IMG/VR virus record: IMGVR_UViG_3300037488_001310 | Coordinates: 1-28,676 of that record | Source of the DNA: a virus | Direction: 5' to 3' (one strand) | Length of the DNA: 28,676 nucleotides | Shown: positions 4,428-17,377 of the stretch, piece by piece | Layout of the letters: each line of letters begins with the position of its first letter | How positions within the stretch are numbered: the stretch's first letter is position 1 | Translations under genes and position numbers: made by a program | Notes under the pieces: model-generated | Told to the model about the DNA's origin: nothing | Databases searched by the model: none | The model's input: only the letters and a program-made list of their open reading frames with translations

Positions 4428-4459
4428 AACATGGGGGAGCATTGTGTTCCCCCAATGTT
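4428..4459 (+). terminator. Hairpin after the tube-like gene
   Basis: AACAT-GGGGGA pairs with TCCCCC-A-ATGTT around a nine-base loop. It is followed by an AT-rich stretch rather than a pure T-run, so it is a weaker terminator than the one after the capsid gene. Its 3' arm reaches the first base of the next promoter box, so hairpin and promoter are packed together. Confidence 0.6.
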
Positions 4460-6619: not shown

Positions 6620-6627
6620 TATATTTA
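6620..6627 (+). promoter_or_regulatory. Class II promoter box TATATTTA before the portal gene
   Basis: TATATTTA is followed by ATAGT and the ATG at 6633. The same 13 bases, TATATTTAATAGT, occur at 10084-10096, where the candidate structured RNA follows instead of a start codon. No TTTG is seen at -33. Confidence 0.6.
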
Positions 6628-6632
6628 ATAGT

Positions 6633-7808
6633 ATGGAAGAACAAAAAAATAATTTATACATTCACAATTTTCAGGTTGCTCGTGTTCCAATCATCGAAGA
6701 ACAAACAGGACTGAATCATAGAACGCCATGGGTTTTCTATGGTATTTCAAATTTGGCACCTCAGGAATTAATTCGATTATACAATAGTTCTCCTACTCAT
6801 AGAGCCGCTATTATGTCTAAGTGGTATGCAACAAGAGGTGAAGAGATATCATTAAAGGATGGTGACAATGGAAGGTTACAAATGGCTAACTCACTTGGAG
6901 ATAGTGTTTATGATATTTGGAATAAGGCTTGTTTGGATTTTATTTTATACGGAGCATTTTCACTTAACATAGTTTATAGAAGAGATAGAGAACAAGGGTT
7001 CGAAATGTATTCAATGGATACATCAAAACTTAGAGCCGAAAGGAGTGACATCAATGACCATGTAAACAATTATTATTATTGTTCTGATTGGGCATTTTAT
7101 AGAAAGTTCACACCAAGAAAATTGCCAGCATTTAATGTTATGGCTGAAGAACCATCACAAGTTTTTTATTACACAACACATAGTCCAGGAAATGAATATT
7201 ATGCCACACCGACATATTGGGGAGGTTCAACAGCCATCGCAACAGAAGTAGAGGTATACAATTTTTGGCATTCAAATATTATCAACGGATTAAATCCATC
7301 TTTATTTGTTTCACTTAATTCAGGAATTCCCGCTCCTGAAGAAAGAGAACAAATCTATAACACATTAACTGCGAAATATTCTTCAAGTAATAATCCAGGA
7401 AAGTTGATGCTGACATTTGCGAATAACAAAGAAGAGGCACCAGAGATTACAACCATCTCACCAAATGGTTCAGACAAAATGTGGATTGAAATGAATGCAT
7501 CAGTACAAAGTGCCATCTTAACATCGCATCAAATTTCCTCACCTGAATTATTGGGTATTCAAACACCTGGTGCTCTCGGTAGTTCAGACCACTTAGAGGC
7601 TCAAGACCACTTCCAACATTTAGTAATCCAACCGATTCAAGAAGAAATCAAAAAAGTATTCGAGAAGTTATTAAATCTTAGAGATGGAAAACCAGCAGAG
7701 ATTGATATTAAGCAATTCGAAATGGTTACAATCCCTGATGAAGCACCAATTGAAACTGTTGATGTAAATAAAGATGTGACAGATAAAACAAACGAAACTA
7801 TAATATAA
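6633..7808 (+). CDS. Portal protein, PBSX-like family
   Basis: The 391-residue product forms the ring at the capsid vertex through which DNA passes. Near the N-terminus GISNLAPQELIRLYNSSPTH matches the portal pattern of Bacteroidota phages (YGxxNLxPxxLIxLYNxSxTH). The middle carries the wing and stem region (LDFILYGAFSLNIVYRRD). The C-terminal helical region contains ISSPELLGIQTPGALGSSDH and LVIQPIQEEIKKVFEKL, usual for the clip and crown of this family. It heads an operon of five genes, each joined to the next by an overlap or a gap of at most two bases. The portal lies after the capsid gene rather than next to the large terminase, which is about 11 kb away. Confidence 0.8.
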   Translation: MEEQKNNLYIHNFQVARVPIIEEQTGLNHRTPWVFYGISNLAPQELIRLYNSSPTHRAAIMSKWYATRGEEISLKDGDNGRLQMANSLGDSVYDIWNKACLDFILYGAFSLNIVYRRDREQGFEMYSMDTSKLRAERSDINDHVNNYYYCSDWAFYRKFTPRKLPAFNVMAEEPSQVFYYTTHSPGNEYYATPTYWGGSTAIATEVEVYNFWHSNIINGLNPSLFVSLNSGIPAPEEREQIYNTLTAKYSSSNNPGKLMLTFANNKEEAPEITTISPNGSDKMWIEMNASVQSAILTSHQISSPELLGIQTPGALGSSDHLEAQDHFQHLVIQPIQEEIKKVFEKLLNLRDGKPAEIDIKQFEMVTIPDEAPIETVDVNKDVTDKTNETII

Positions 7809-8696: not shown

Positions 8697-9074
8697 ATGA
8701 AAGAAGAAATAATATTACATTTTATACACGCTCAAACACAGGTTAGATTCAACCATTGGGTAACAATGGGAGACGCACAACACAGAGCACTTGGGGAGTT
8801 GTACGGACTATTAGATGAACACATTGATGAGTTCGTTGAAACTATGATAGGCAAGCCTGAATACGGTAGACCTGAGTTTGATTCAACATTCTCAATTGAG
8901 TTTGATAATCCAAAGACATTGGATATTAAAGTTTATTTATCTCAATTCAAAGATTTTTTATTTCAATTAACACAAGCCTTAGACCCTGTTAAAGATACAG
9001 ACCTTTTAAATATGAGAGATGAAATCTTGGGTCACGTTAACCATACATTATATCTTTTAACCCTTCAATACTAA
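8697..9074 (+). CDS. Dps/ferritin-like four-helix protein (DUF5856-like)
   Basis: The 125-residue product is helical throughout. It carries FNHW (His20), then H29, D44 and E48: the spacing H-x14-D-x3-E is the same as that of the ferroxidase site of Dps proteins (in E. coli His63, Asp78, Glu82), and His20 stands where the first Dps His would be, at nine rather than twelve residues. The C-terminal helices end DEILGHVNHTLYLLTLQY. Related proteins annotated DUF5856 occur in marine phages, from memory. It starts two bases after the coiled-coil gene and its stop overlaps the next start. Iron binding is inferred, not shown; it could be a structural relative that has lost catalysis. Confidence 0.55.
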   Translation: MKEEIILHFIHAQTQVRFNHWVTMGDAQHRALGELYGLLDEHIDEFVETMIGKPEYGRPEFDSTFSIEFDNPKTLDIKVYLSQFKDFLFQLTQALDPVKDTDLLNMRDEILGHVNHTLYLLTLQY

Positions 9075-10054
9075 TGCCAATTCCAAAACCTGAAAAAGGA
9101 GAGAGAACAGATGAGTTCTTACCAAGATGTATGAAAGCAATCTCAGGAGAATATCCGAGTGAACAAGCATACGCCATATGTCAAAATCAATTAAGCAAAG
9201 AAGAAATGTCCAAAGAAACAGAAGAAGTATTTGTATTGACTCCAAAGAAAGCAGAGAACAGAGGTGCCTATCTTTCAAGATGTCAATCTAATTCAAAGAT
9301 GAAAGCACAATACCCAAACATGAAAGAAAGGATGGGTACTTGTTTAAACGCATTTAACGCCTATTACAAGTATTGGGCTCGTCTTGAAGAGTTTGGTTCA
9401 GAAGAACATCCTGATGTCAAATTTGAGGGTTGTATGTCCAAACACAAGGCTTCTGGTAAAGATTACAAGGAAGCATATTCAATGTGTATGTCTGAACTAA
9501 TTGTTGAGCCAGTTGCTATGGAAGAAATGGATACAAACATTGGTGATTGTATTGCCAAAAGAATGAAAGAAGATTCATCTTTAACACAGGAAGAGGCGAG
9601 AAAAAGATGTGCGGCATCTGTTGTAGTTCAACCATCAGGTGGTAGTAATCCACAAGTTGTTGGTGCTCCTGTTGCTGTTGTGATGGCTGAAGATTGTCCA
9701 CCAGCAACACTTGATATTCCATTAAATATTGAGAACAGACAAAAATGTATTGACCAAGCGAACTATGGTCCATTAGACCCTAATCTTCCAAACGAAGATT
9801 ATTGGAAAAAAAAAGCAAATCAATTTAACACAACCCCTGATGAGGCAAAGAAAGCACTCTGTGGAAATTGTTCCTTCTTCATTCAAACAAAAGAAATTTT
9901 AGATTGTATTGCTCAAGGATTGGGTGATGTGGGTAATGACCCATATGATTCAATTCAAGCAGGTGATTTAGGTTATTGTGAAGCATATGATTTTAAGTGT
10001 GCTGCGAGTCGTACCTGTGACGCTTGGGTTGTAGGTGGTCCAATAATTAATTAA
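9074..10054 (+). CDS. Cys-rich protein: four Cys-pair helical units plus a HiPIP-like C-terminal domain
   Basis: The 326-residue product has four repeated units, each with two cysteines 16-19 residues apart: C19/C36, C71/C91, C121/C139 and C160/C180. The pattern resembles disulfide- or metal-linked helical hairpins (C-M-x...E-A-Y-x-x-C). The C-terminal 120 residues hold CGNCSFF, LDCIAQGLGD and GYCEAYDFKCAASRTCDAW ending VVGGPI, a pattern seen in phage proteins resembling high-potential iron-sulfur domains. It is the last gene of the portal operon and overlaps the Dps-like gene by one base (TAATG). An iron-sulfur cluster is plausible but unproven. No signal peptide is present. Confidence 0.55.
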   Translation: MPIPKPEKGERTDEFLPRCMKAISGEYPSEQAYAICQNQLSKEEMSKETEEVFVLTPKKAENRGAYLSRCQSNSKMKAQYPNMKERMGTCLNAFNAYYKYWARLEEFGSEEHPDVKFEGCMSKHKASGKDYKEAYSMCMSELIVEPVAMEEMDTNIGDCIAKRMKEDSSLTQEEARKRCAASVVVQPSGGSNPQVVGAPVAVVMAEDCPPATLDIPLNIENRQKCIDQANYGPLDPNLPNEDYWKKKANQFNTTPDEAKKALCGNCSFFIQTKEILDCIAQGLGDVGNDPYDSIQAGDLGYCEAYDFKCAASRTCDAWVVGGPIIN

Positions 10055-10083
10055 TTATATCTTTACCAAGATACTATTAATTG

Positions 10084-10091
10084 TATATTTA
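10084..10091 (+). promoter_or_regulatory. Class II promoter box before the candidate structured RNA
   Basis: TATATTTA followed by ATAGT, identical over 13 bases to the portal promoter, but leading into GGGGACAGG rather than ATG. The five-base spacing puts the predicted first transcribed base at 10097. Confidence 0.5.
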
Positions 10092-10096
10092 ATAGT

Positions 10097-10170
10097 GGGG
10101 ACAGGTTCGGGTTCTTTGCATTTCGCATCTATTGTTACATCCATTATTTTTTTCCCGCCTGTCCCTTTTT
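10097..10170 (+). ncRNA. Candidate small structured RNA
   Basis: GGGACAGG (10098-10105) pairs with CCTGTCCC (10158-10165), and CGGG (10108-10111) with CCCG (10154-10157). The result is a 12-base-pair helix with one TT bulge that closes a 42-base T-rich loop, followed by TTTTT. A class II box lies five bases upstream, so the whole 74-base unit looks like promoter, RNA and terminator. No open frame of useful length is present. It could instead be a terminator or attenuator of the Cys-rich gene, but the large loop and own promoter favour a separate RNA. No known RNA family was recognised. Confidence 0.45.
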
Positions 10171-10204
10171 AAAAGATTTGATTTACCCATCAAATCTTTT
10201 TTTT
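10171..10204 (+). terminator. Strong intrinsic terminator
   Basis: AAAAGATTTGAT pairs perfectly with ATCAAATCTTTT around a six-base loop (TTACCC), with four further T after the arm. It closes the head module and lies just after the candidate structured RNA, so read-through from either would stop here. Confidence 0.85.
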
Positions 10205-10212
10205 ATTTACTA

Positions 10213-10243
10213 TTGATACTTTAACCCCCTTATGGTATATTTA
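10213..10243 (+). promoter_or_regulatory. Promoter with TTG at -33 and TATATTTA
   Basis: TTG at 10213 is followed after 20 bases by TATATTTA (10236-10243). The upstream part reads TTGATACTTT, which also occurs with the same spacing before the box at 16172. The start codon of the 51-residue gene is 15 bases further on, so this message has a short leader, unlike the N5-ATG genes. Confidence 0.5.
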
Positions 10244-10258
10244 TAAAAAACAAATACT

Positions 10259-10414
10259 ATGGGACAAATGAAACAATTATTAGATAATCTATTCGAATTA
10301 GAATTAGATGAATCACAATATCCTGATGACTTACAGATGGATTATGAAATTTGGTTATTACAAAAGGAGGCTGAGAAAGCAGCATACGAAGAATTATTGG
10401 CAGATACAAAATAA
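10259..10414 (+). CDS. Small acidic protein, 51 residues, unknown
   Basis: ATG 10259 opens a frame of 51 codons ending TAA 10412-10414 (MGQMKQLLDNLFELELDESQ, then YPDDLQMDYEIWLLQKEAEK). It is highly acidic and helical, with no Cys and no membrane segment. A promoter with TTG and TATATTTA lies directly upstream, and the IbrA-like gene starts 17 bases after its stop, so it is probably co-transcribed with the IbrA/IbrB pair. Function unknown. Confidence 0.6.
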   Translation: MGQMKQLLDNLFELELDESQYPDDLQMDYEIWLLQKEAEKAAYEELLADTK

Positions 10415-10431: not shown

Positions 10432-11652
10432 ATGAAGAATTATAATTTAGATATTAATGTTAACGATGCATCGGTAGAGAGAATCTCTTGGACCTTCGAT
10501 AATTTTGAGAAGATTTATTTATCGTTTTCTGCGGGTAAAGATTCGACCGTTATGCTTCATTTGGTTATGGATGAGGCAAAGAAAAGAAACCGTAAAATTG
10601 GGATATTACTTGTCGATTTAGAGGGACAATACAACCTCACCATTAAACATGCTCAATCTTGTTTTGAGATGTATAAAGATTACATAGATTTATATTGGGT
10701 ATGTCTTCCAATTCATTTAAGAAATGCTGTGAGTGTTTATGAAACATTTTGGGTTTGTTGGGATGATGATAGACAACAAGATTGGATTAGACCGTTACCA
10801 ACAAATGCAATTCACGATGAAACTTATTTTCCGTTCTTTAAAAAAGGAATGGAGTTCGAAGAGTTCGTACCAAAGTTTGGTGAGTGGTATTCACAAGGAC
10901 AGGAGTGTGCTTGTTTTGTTGGTATTCGTTCTGATGAAAGTTTAAATCGTTATAGAACCATCGCATCAAAATCAAAGGTTACAAAAGATAATAAGATATA
11001 CACCACATCTGTTAGTCAAAATGTTTTTAATGTTTATCCAATTTATGATTGGAAGACATCAGACATTTGGATTTACCACGCAAAGAATCAAGACAGACCG
11101 TATAACAAACTTTATGACCTAATGCATAAAGCAGGATTGACCCCATCTCAAATGAGAATCTGTCAACCTTATGGTGATGACCAAAGAAGAGGTTTATGGT
11201 TATTCCATTTGATTGAACCTGAGACATGGTCCAAAGTTGTTGCCAGAGTTAATGGAGCAAATAGTGGAGCGTTGTATGTTAATGAAAATGGAAACATTAG
11301 TGGGTATAATAAAATCTCAAAACCTGAGGGACACACTTGGCAAAGTTTTGCAAACCTTTTAATCAACTCAATGCCACCAAAATTAAAAACACATTATGAA
11401 AATAAAATTACTATCTTTGTAAAGTGGTGGATGGATAAAGGAAATTATCCTGATGGTATTCCTGACTTTGCTGACCCTAAATTGGAATCAGATAAAAAGG
11501 TAGGGACTTGGAGAAGAATATGTAAATCATTATTAAGAAATGATTATTGGTGTAAAGGATTAAGTTTCGCTCAGAATAAAAGTGACGCTTATAACAGGTA
11601 TCTTAAATTAATGGAGAAAAGAAAATCAGATTGGAAATTAGAAATATTTTAA
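10432..11652 (+). CDS. ibrA: IbrA-like PAPS-reductase-family protein (DUF3440 type)
   Basis: The 406-residue product belongs to the PP-loop ATP pyrophosphatase/PAPS reductase superfamily. The PP-loop is SAGKDS at residues 33-38 (canonical SGGKDS), followed by VDLEGQYNL. GIRSDES at 164-170 and the C-terminal segment VGTWRRICKSLLRNDYWCKG match the IbrA/DUF3440 subfamily, not CysH: the CysH C-terminal active-site Cys motif is not seen. IbrA of E. coli is known with IbrB as a phage-borne activator of eib surface genes; its biochemical reaction is not settled. Here too the partner follows directly, two bases after the stop. A role in nucleic-acid modification or gene control is inferred; sulfate assimilation is unlikely. 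The possible promoter is a weak TAAATTTA at 10412. Confidence 0.8.
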   Translation: MKNYNLDINVNDASVERISWTFDNFEKIYLSFSAGKDSTVMLHLVMDEAKKRNRKIGILLVDLEGQYNLTIKHAQSCFEMYKDYIDLYWVCLPIHLRNAVSVYETFWVCWDDDRQQDWIRPLPTNAIHDETYFPFFKKGMEFEEFVPKFGEWYSQGQECACFVGIRSDESLNRYRTIASKSKVTKDNKIYTTSVSQNVFNVYPIYDWKTSDIWIYHAKNQDRPYNKLYDLMHKAGLTPSQMRICQPYGDDQRRGLWLFHLIEPETWSKVVARVNGANSGALYVNENGNISGYNKISKPEGHTWQSFANLLINSMPPKLKTHYENKITIFVKWWMDKGNYPDGIPDFADPKLESDKKVGTWRRICKSLLRNDYWCKGLSFAQNKSDAYNRYLKLMEKRKSDWKLEIF

Positions 11653-11654
11653 CT

Positions 11655-12281
11655 ATGGAAGAATTATTAAAACAACTCGCTGAGTATATCTCAACAAAAA
11701 GTATTGATGAACAAGTTGAACTTATCAATCAATGTAAATTGGAATTACATAACATTTCACCAATGAAGTTTGAACCTGTGGATTGTGTTCTATGGGTAAA
11801 GAATGAAACGGTTGAAGCGAATGACTATAACCCTAATAGTGTTGCCCCTCCAGAGATGAAATTATTGGAGATATCTATTATGGAGGATGGTTATACCCAA
11901 CCAGTAGTTACCTTCCAAAAAGAGGGTGTTAGAGAGGTTGTAGATGGATTCCACAGAACGAGGGTATCCAAAGAATCTGGTCTTGTTAAAGATAGGGTTC
12001 ATGGGTTTGTACCTGTGGTGACTATCAATCAACACAAAGAAGATAAAGGGGATAGAATTGCATCCACCATTAGACACAACAGAGCGAGAGGTAAACACAA
12101 GATTGATTCAATGTCAGATATTGTTGTCGACCTTAAAAGAAGAAATTGGTCTGATGAGAAGATTGCAAAACAATTGGGTATGGATGCTGATGAGGTATTA
12201 AGATTATCACAAATCAGTGGACTAATAGAAATGTTTGAGGACCAAGAATTTTCTCAAGCATGGGATTTGGAAGTAGAATAA
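11655..12281 (+). CDS. ibrB: IbrB-like ParB/Srx-family protein
   Basis: The 208-residue product has a ParB/sulfiredoxin-type N-terminal domain with NDYNPNSVAPPEMKLLE, DGYTQPVV and VVDGFHRTRV. The 'DGFHR' segment is the ParB GxxRxxA-like nucleotide-binding motif. It continues with IASTIRHNRARGKHKID and an HTH-like C-terminal part (WSDEKIAKQLGMDADEVLRL). This order matches IbrB, the partner of IbrA. A TTG at 11631 would overlap the IbrA-like gene, but ATG 11655, two bases after its stop, is the natural start. The 3' end contains the -33 element of the next promoter. Together the pair most likely acts as one unit; target and reaction are unknown. Confidence 0.8.
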   Translation: MEELLKQLAEYISTKSIDEQVELINQCKLELHNISPMKFEPVDCVLWVKNETVEANDYNPNSVAPPEMKLLEISIMEDGYTQPVVTFQKEGVREVVDGFHRTRVSKESGLVKDRVHGFVPVVTINQHKEDKGDRIASTIRHNRARGKHKIDSMSDIVVDLKRRNWSDEKIAKQLGMDADEVLRLSQISGLIEMFEDQEFSQAWDLEVE

Positions 12282-15757: not shown

Positions 15758-16130
15758 ATTCCTGACAATCCTGATAACTGAATTGGTTCTTAGGTCCTTT
15801 TCTTGGGGATTTAGAGACCTTTAAACCCCACTTCTTACAGAATTGGATATGTATATCCATCTCAGGATTATAACCCAAATTATCCATAGCAGAATACATA
15901 GAACAATAATCTCGTTTAGTAGTTCCAACCAAACTTAATTGCTTTGGGTCACTCTTAGTTTTTTTAATTTTAACAGGAGGGTTTTCCATCTTTCTTTTTT
16001 CTTTATAGTAGTTGAACATAATAGTCGTACAGATTTTACACACAGCCTGCAATCCATCAGGTGATGCTTTTTTCTTATGAAAAGATGTTATATCTTTTTC
16101 GTTACCACAATTTTTACAAATTTTTTTCAT
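15756..16130 (-). CDS. Zinc-ribbon protein, endonuclease VII-like N-terminus
   Basis: The only reverse-strand gene seen. The 124-residue product starts MKKICKNCGNEKDITSFHKK and continues to VCKICTT, giving C-x2-C and C-x2-C pairs about 30 residues apart. This zinc finger is common in phage HNH and recombination-endonuclease-VII-like proteins. The rest is basic and has no clear HNH catalytic motif (CSMYSAMDNLGYNPEMDIHI, then FCKKWGLKVSKSP). The frame is open six codons upstream, but ATG 16130 is chosen because it follows a class II box at the standard five-base spacing. Likely a DNA- or RNA-binding regulator or a degenerate nuclease. Confidence 0.65.
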   Translation of the reverse strand: MKKICKNCGNEKDITSFHKKKASPDGLQAVCKICTTIMFNYYKEKRKMENPPVKIKKTKSDPKQLSLVGTTKRDYCSMYSAMDNLGYNPEMDIHIQFCKKWGLKVSKSPRKGPKNQFSYQDCQE

Positions 16131-16894: not shown

Positions 16895-17377
16895 TTGAAG
16901 CACTGGATAAGTGAAAACTATTCTGAACTGAAAAACATATGTAGCAAGTTCTCAACAACAGAAGAAGTTGATGACTTGTTACATCTGTGCTTGGAAGAAT
17001 TCATGAAGAACAAAAGGGTAACAGAAATACCTGATAACCAAAAGATATATTTCTTTACAAAGATAGTTCGCAACCAATACAATTCAGAATCCTCTAAATA
17101 TCATTATACTTATAGAAAGTATAAGTTCAATGATATGGTTGATGTTGATATACCAGAAGTGGAATATGAAGAAGACCAGTTCAACATGGAGTGGGTTCAA
17201 GAACAATTAAAAAAGATAGATTGGTATTACGCAAGATTATTCCAACTATACATTGATGAAGGCTGTAGTGTAACCAAACTATCAAAGAGAACAACAATAC
17301 CAATTAACTCTGTGAGCAGAGATATAAATAAAGTCAGAAGACAATTAAAACAATTAAGAAATGGGATGCGGCTGTAA
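16895..17377 (+). CDS. Sigma-70-family-like factor
   Basis: The 160-residue product has two halves. The first (TEEVDDLLHLCLEEFMKNKR, IYFFTKIVRNQYNSESSKYH) resembles sigma region 2, with the aromatic/basic stretch used in -10 recognition. The second (YARLFQLYIDEGCSVTKLSK, then TTIPINSVSRDINKVRRQL) is a region 4-type helix-turn-helix. Size and order fit the small sigma-like proteins of Bacteroidota phages. The only sensible start is TTG 16895; the first ATG would lose about 35 residues of region 2. It overlaps the next gene by 17 bases. It is a candidate for reading the class II box TATATTTA. It could also be a terminase-linked DNA-binding protein. Confidence 0.6.
   Translation: MKHWISENYSELKNICSKFSTTEEVDDLLHLCLEEFMKNKRVTEIPDNQKIYFFTKIVRNQYNSESSKYHYTYRKYKFNDMVDVDIPEVEYEEDQFNMEWVQEQLKKIDWYYARLFQLYIDEGCSVTKLSKRTTIPINSVSRDINKVRRQLKQLRNGMRL

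Follow-up and report, generated by a model that had tools for sequence, protein, structure and literature searches.

A predicted small RNA family with a covarying helix and a U-rich loop in phages of probable Flavobacteriales hosts

Introduction

The viral DNA analysed here, a stretch of 28,676 nt referred to as the window (IMG/VR record IMGVR_UViG_3300037488_001310), carries a long G-rich helix whose first base follows the same 13 bases that precede the start codon of the portal gene. This raises the question whether the phage makes a separate small RNA at this position, where such an RNA would begin and end, and what it might act on. A covarying, promoter-anchored RNA family would be a testable regulator in the little-described field of small RNAs of Bacteroidota phages; a literature search returned no study on small RNAs of phages infecting Bacteroidota. 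Nonlabens phages P12024S/L have the nearest portal protein (27.6% identity) and Flavobacterium phages the nearest terminase (35.5% identity), which makes a host within the Flavobacteriales probable.

The Element in the Window

The features on which the argument is built are the following:

6620..6635, plus strand: 13-base box directly 5' of the portal ATG, identical to the one at the RNA (leaderless reading)
10064..10077, plus strand: spacer motif TACCAAGATACTAT, flanked by the presumed -33 and -7 elements of the promoter of the RNA; occurs once in the window
10084..10091, plus strand: -7 box TATATTTA of the RNA promoter; the following 10092-10096 are identical to that portion of the portal box
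10097..10204, plus strand: predicted small RNA of about 107 nt with +1 at 10096 or 10097, from folding, box-to-helix register and relatives
10097..10111, plus strand: 5' arm of the closing helix (GGGGACAGG, TT bulge, CGGG)
10112..10153, plus strand: exposed U-rich loop of 42 nt, with UCCAU at 10140-10144
10154..10166, plus strand: 3' arm of the closing helix (CCCG, CCTGTCCC, outer U)
10171..10204, plus strand: intrinsic terminator (12-bp hairpin, UUACCC loop, T8)
10259..10414, plus strand: adjacent early gene of 51 aa (MGQMKQLLDNLFELELDESQYPDD...), the proposed target, with its own promoter (TATATTTA at 10236-10243)

The sequence-only reading had described a 12-pair helix, a 42-base T-rich loop, a T-run and a second, perfect terminator, and folding confirms all of their coordinates. 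The closing helix is formed by GGGACAGG/CCTGTCCC and CGGG/CCCG around a TT bulge, with 12 Watson-Crick pairs, or 13 including an outer G-U pair. Together with its loop it reaches a minimum free energy of -20.1 kcal/mol (z -3.4 against shuffles), and a T-run follows at 10166-10170. The second hairpin (10171-10200) is a perfect 12-bp stem followed by eight T (z -6.5), and for the entire 10097-10204 the z-score is -5.4, with none of 200 shuffles folding equally well. These folding energies, like the duplex energies below, were computed without cofactors, and the duplex energies also ignore accessibility and chaperones. The 13-base identity holds as well: the window has exactly two copies of TATATTTAATAGT, one at 6620-6632, followed by the portal ATG, and one at 10084-10096, followed by GGGGACAGG.

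A Family of Related Elements

Relatives were collected through similarity to the protein encoded upstream (9074-10054), which gave 47 loci with the element past the stop codon in the near ones, and through a pattern search with the spacer motif. After removal of duplicates, the IMG/VR phage contigs yielded at least 32 distinct homologues of the element, the window's own included, together with one diverged copy; the 32 are related to each other and do not represent independent trials. Each has a -7 box, a G-rich helix that usually begins 13 nt later, a U-rich loop of 38-51 nt and a second hairpin with a T-run, so that the predicted RNA measures 101-145 nt from its predicted +1. Where the genomic position can be read, the element lies 3' of the structural gene block and 5' of early genes, and an additional gene sometimes intervenes. 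A scan for a -7 box followed by such a helix, performed without the spacer motif, gave 54 matches, nearly all of them copies of the RNA element, across 1.16 Mb of loci from relatives, versus 5 in 0.65 Mb of control DNA, which exceeds what chance would give. The same motif-independent scan recovered the diverged copy (L133:4067-4140), a homologous helix with a UUCCAUUUC loop that lacks the invariant spacer motif.

Bacterial genome contigs contained 32 exact matches to the spacer motif; these had the look of chance matches, and no comparable helix was seen beside them by eye. No similar element was recognised in Nonlabens phage P12024L or Flavobacterium phage Fpv5. Another 14-mer, GGGACAGGTTCGGG, was discarded as a search key: it retrieved 119 stretches, apparently by chance, and the helix was in none of those examined.

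The Helix Is Maintained by Compensatory Change

The two arms differ almost wholly between subgroups and are complementary within each, as in GGGACAGG/CCTGTCCC (window group), TGAGGGGtGCTAC/GTAGCCCCCTCA (L123), AGAGGGGAAG/CTTCCCCTCT (L128) and, with G-U pairs included, GTGTGGGTGA/TCATCCGCAC (L232). A member's own arms pair at -22.1 kcal/mol compared with -13.1 kcal/mol after swapping, i.e., a swap between unlike members costs about 9 kcal/mol. Among 13 arm-cluster representatives, the cognate mean is -22.5 and the permuted mean -15.6, and none of 20,000 permutations reaches the cognate value (p < 5e-5). The arm swap bears on the outcome that had been named as speaking against the RNA, arms that change without compensation; across the 13 clusters, the changes are compensated. 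Maintenance of the helix by selection is thus well supported by the sequence comparison. The covariation argument depends on the wider family and is thin within the nine closest sequences, where double changes affect two pairs and 68 of 500 shuffles do equally well.

Promoter and Start of Transcription

The 14-mer TACCAAGATACTAT is invariant in 32/32 members and absent from the diverged L133. Its invariance is partly by construction, because most loci were fetched with it; the members fetched by protein similarity alone are independent of this choice and carry it too. TTGA is often found 5' of it, at the distance expected of a -33 element. From the beginning of the -7 box to the base of the helix, 30 of the 32 members measure 11-15 nt, with a mode of 13. 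In Flavobacterium johnsoniae, the -7 element (TAHHTTTG) spans -12 to -5 (PMC6847099), and the same placement predicts a +1 at 10096/10097 for the RNA and at 6632/6633 for the portal gene. Of the TATATTTA sites, 28 of 121 in relatives and 4 of 8 in the window have an ATG at exactly +13, versus 1 of 76 in control DNA. Most portal orthologues show TATATTTA, 5-7 nt and then ATG.

Hence, the register of the helix and the ATG at +13 point to the same start, in line with the claim that the first base of the helix fixes the start point. Since the first base of the RNA would be fixed by its helix, the element makes it possible to gauge the transcription start point from sequence alone, and this in turn supports leaderless late messages across the phage group. 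The excess of ATG at +13, many portal orthologues included, likewise supports such messages, as had been proposed; in F. psychrophilum, 5.5% of mRNAs are leaderless (PMC9723704). Compared with the sigma-A promoters of Flavobacterium (TTTG / TANNTTTG; PMC6847099; PMC9723704), the form of the -7 box and its spacing to +1 are the same, and some mRNAs are leaderless there as is predicted here; the 14-base spacer is unusually conserved here and leaderless starts look commoner than in the host.

The assignment of RNA and portal gene to one shared box (class II) holds in part. The 13 bases are common to both in the window, but full identity is limited to the window, with near relatives diverging in the last five bases, and in several relatives (L143-type phages) the RNA has the box TATAATAG instead of TATATTTA, the portal type. 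The shared 13-mer is therefore weakened as proof of a single promoter class, and the RNA promoter, with its own extra motif, is not simply class II. A hairpin formed around the -7 box by the near-palindrome ACTATTAA...TTAATAGT was dismissed as a conserved element because its 3' half is lost in L128, L129 and L136.

In the window, TATATTTA-like boxes stand 13-15 nt 5' of start codons at 95, 4459, 6620, 16628 (+), 16143 (-) and 19875. This phage seems to have many leaderless starts, one of them in a minus-strand gene near 16130; for the ORF listed at 4442, ATG 4472 (box at 4459) is a better start. In other phages, a 16-mer, ATTACCAAGATACTAT, occurs without the helix inside a conserved block, AGTAAATTACCAAGATACTATC, 5' of MRGYFGLGQLS-like genes (L223, L229-L236, L238, L256, L273 and others), which may be a coincidence of a large search.

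The 3' End and the Kind of RNA

The second hairpin and its T-run are present in 32/32 members, while a T-run directly after the first helix is not conserved. For this reason, the first T-run is probably not the RNA 3' end, and from the proposed range of about 74-110 bases the form of about 107 nt is better supported and a 74-nt form is less likely. The terminator hairpin loop is UUACCC in the window and CUAAAAAA in many of L121-L189, more conserved than a terminator needs.

The position directly 3' of the last structural-block gene and the quality of the second hairpin would also suit a plain double terminator that ends the structural operon, in which case the box upstream would resemble a promoter by accident and there would be no separate regulator. 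We consider this very improbable, as the first helix lacks a T-run in most relatives and a terminator needs neither the 14-base conserved upstream motif, nor the fixed 13-nt register from the -7 box, nor a loop of 38-51 nt. Read-through into the early gene, with loop and helix controlling translation or termination as a cis-acting 5' leader (riboswitch or attenuator), appears still less probable. The element does lie directly 5' of a gene in the same orientation, and in many relatives its loop is complementary to the start of that gene; however, a strong T8 hairpin and a separate promoter (TTGAT / TATATTTA) intervene in the window, comparable ones do so in relatives, and several members have another gene between the element and the AUGGGA gene.

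In Rfam 15, no family matched at the curated (gathering) threshold, and the best sub-threshold matches were scattered and far below the cut-off; a tRNA search of the stretch found none. A short ORF inside the RNA (GTG 10095, 25 codons in the window) was rejected as a coding sequence, for its start codon, position and frame vary across members and L135 has none. On sequence, the marks of an independently transcribed small RNA are thus found together, i.e., a promoter at fixed distance, an intrinsic terminator, compensatory structure and no conserved frame. The proposal of a small independent RNA is borne out to the extent that predicted promoter, covarying helix and terminator are common to at least 32 relatives. 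By these predictions, the element is a conserved RNA family absent from Rfam, new as a family within a known kind, the phage small RNAs.

What the Loop Might Pair With

Three steps of the proposed mechanism are well supported by the sequence. RNA polymerase would start at 10096/10097 from the TATATTTA -7 box and the specific spacer motif, so that the first bases form the base of the helix. The selected helix would then present a largely unstructured U-rich loop of about 40 nt with a (C)CCAU core. Transcription would stop at the second hairpin, just 5' of the promoter of the next early gene. As a fourth step, the loop might pair with mRNA at a start codon, in most cases the one of the small early gene next to the RNA (AUGGGACAAA..., AUGGGAAUGAC..., UAGAAAUGGAAAG...), and block initiation; an RNA from a late-type promoter would in consequence switch off the head of the early region. 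The product of this 51-aa early gene has no match in Pfam or NCBIfam.

Several observations argue for such pairing. In 30 of the 32 members the RNA contains CCCAU in a largely unpaired state, and the other two have UCCAU; where the loop lacks CCCAU (window, L187, L174/L178/L189) it sits elsewhere in the RNA, again largely unpaired. AUGGGA is the start of a nearby small gene in most members; if CCCAU were kept for another reason, conserved Gly2 codons (AUGGGA) could yield this match by chance. Against dinucleotide-shuffled loops, the loop scores a mean z of -1.28 with the first downstream gene start (n=32) and -0.07 with other starts (n=466), with the strongest complementarity in L262, L266, L292, L264, L270, L136 and L170. 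At cluster level, loops pair better with their own targets than with swapped ones, whichever of three target stretches is taken (p 0.006-0.02). In L144, L264 and L270 the first gene is a different one (UAGAAAUGG), and once more the loop matches this start better than any other in the contig.

Across the family there is a signal of complementarity to the start, but it is weak or absent in most of the window's own subgroup. No preference for the neighbour is seen in the window (z +0.94), L121, L126 or L181. For this reason, and because two other readings are serious rivals, pairing at the start codon is put forward tentatively. In one rival, the RNA binds a phage or host protein with its U-rich CCAU loop as the ligand site, the helix serves as a handle, and the start complementarity is incidental. 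The near-constant loop length (38-51 nt) while the arms drift freely fits this, as does the retention of U-rich and (C)CCAU content in the window group, where complementarity to the neighbour is lost; the family-wide excess of complementarity and the advantage of cognate over swapped pairs do not, and we hold protein binding to be somewhat unlikely. The other rival keeps base pairing and moves the target to a host mRNA or another phage mRNA. Several window-group loops without neighbour preference are in accord with it, and some starts elsewhere in the window outscore the neighbour's; the one at 17361, for example, reaches -16.1 kcal/mol, and its orthologue ranks second in L170. Since the neighbour gives the strongest signal among phage genes with at least three orthologues and no other such gene comes near it, this alternative seems unlikely.

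Overall, we prefer the reading of an independent untranslated phage small RNA that uses its loop to pair with mRNA, the start of the neighbouring early gene being the likeliest site, with a confidence that falls short of an even balance. Bacteroidota hosts start translation without Shine-Dalgarno pairing. A more elaborate version is a late-to-early off switch for such hosts, in which a phage factor reads the invariant spacer, the RNA fires together with leaderless late genes, and the loop covers the first early start codon and co-evolves with it. We regard this as rather improbable in its entirety; a candidate for the factor would be the phage's own ECF-like sigma factor (16895-17377).

Known Phage RNAs and Neighbouring Genes

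The closest known parallel for the proposed role is the sar RNA of phage P22, which represses ant by pairing at its translation start (PMC12197685). Both are small phage RNAs, with a block of translation initiation of a neighbouring phage gene proposed here; sar is antisense to its target, whereas the RNA described here lies on the same strand beside its putative target, has a long closing helix and is complementary to that target only in part. OOP RNA of lambda and aQ RNA are likewise small, untranslated and transcribed from their own promoters, and lower the expression of a phage regulator, but both are antisense transcripts of the target gene (PMC12197685). VpdS of phage VP882 and PreS of lambda resemble the predicted role in acting on other transcripts in trans; they work together with Hfq, in gammaproteobacteria (PMC12197685), while the RNA here matches no Rfam family.

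The product of 16895-17377 (+) is likely an ECF-like sigma factor, matching NCBIfam TIGR02937 with an E-value of 8.9e-8, below the curated cut-off. It is conserved in element-bearing relatives, and seven of nine orthologues match TIGR02937 (best 2.7e-9); pairwise BLAST found no similarity between this protein and gp35 of P12024L. It is a candidate reader of the TATATTTA late promoters. Downstream of the RNA, 10432-12281 holds a PAPS-reductase-like (PF01507/DUF3440) and ParB-like gene pair, the first of which resembles IbrA of streptococcal phages.
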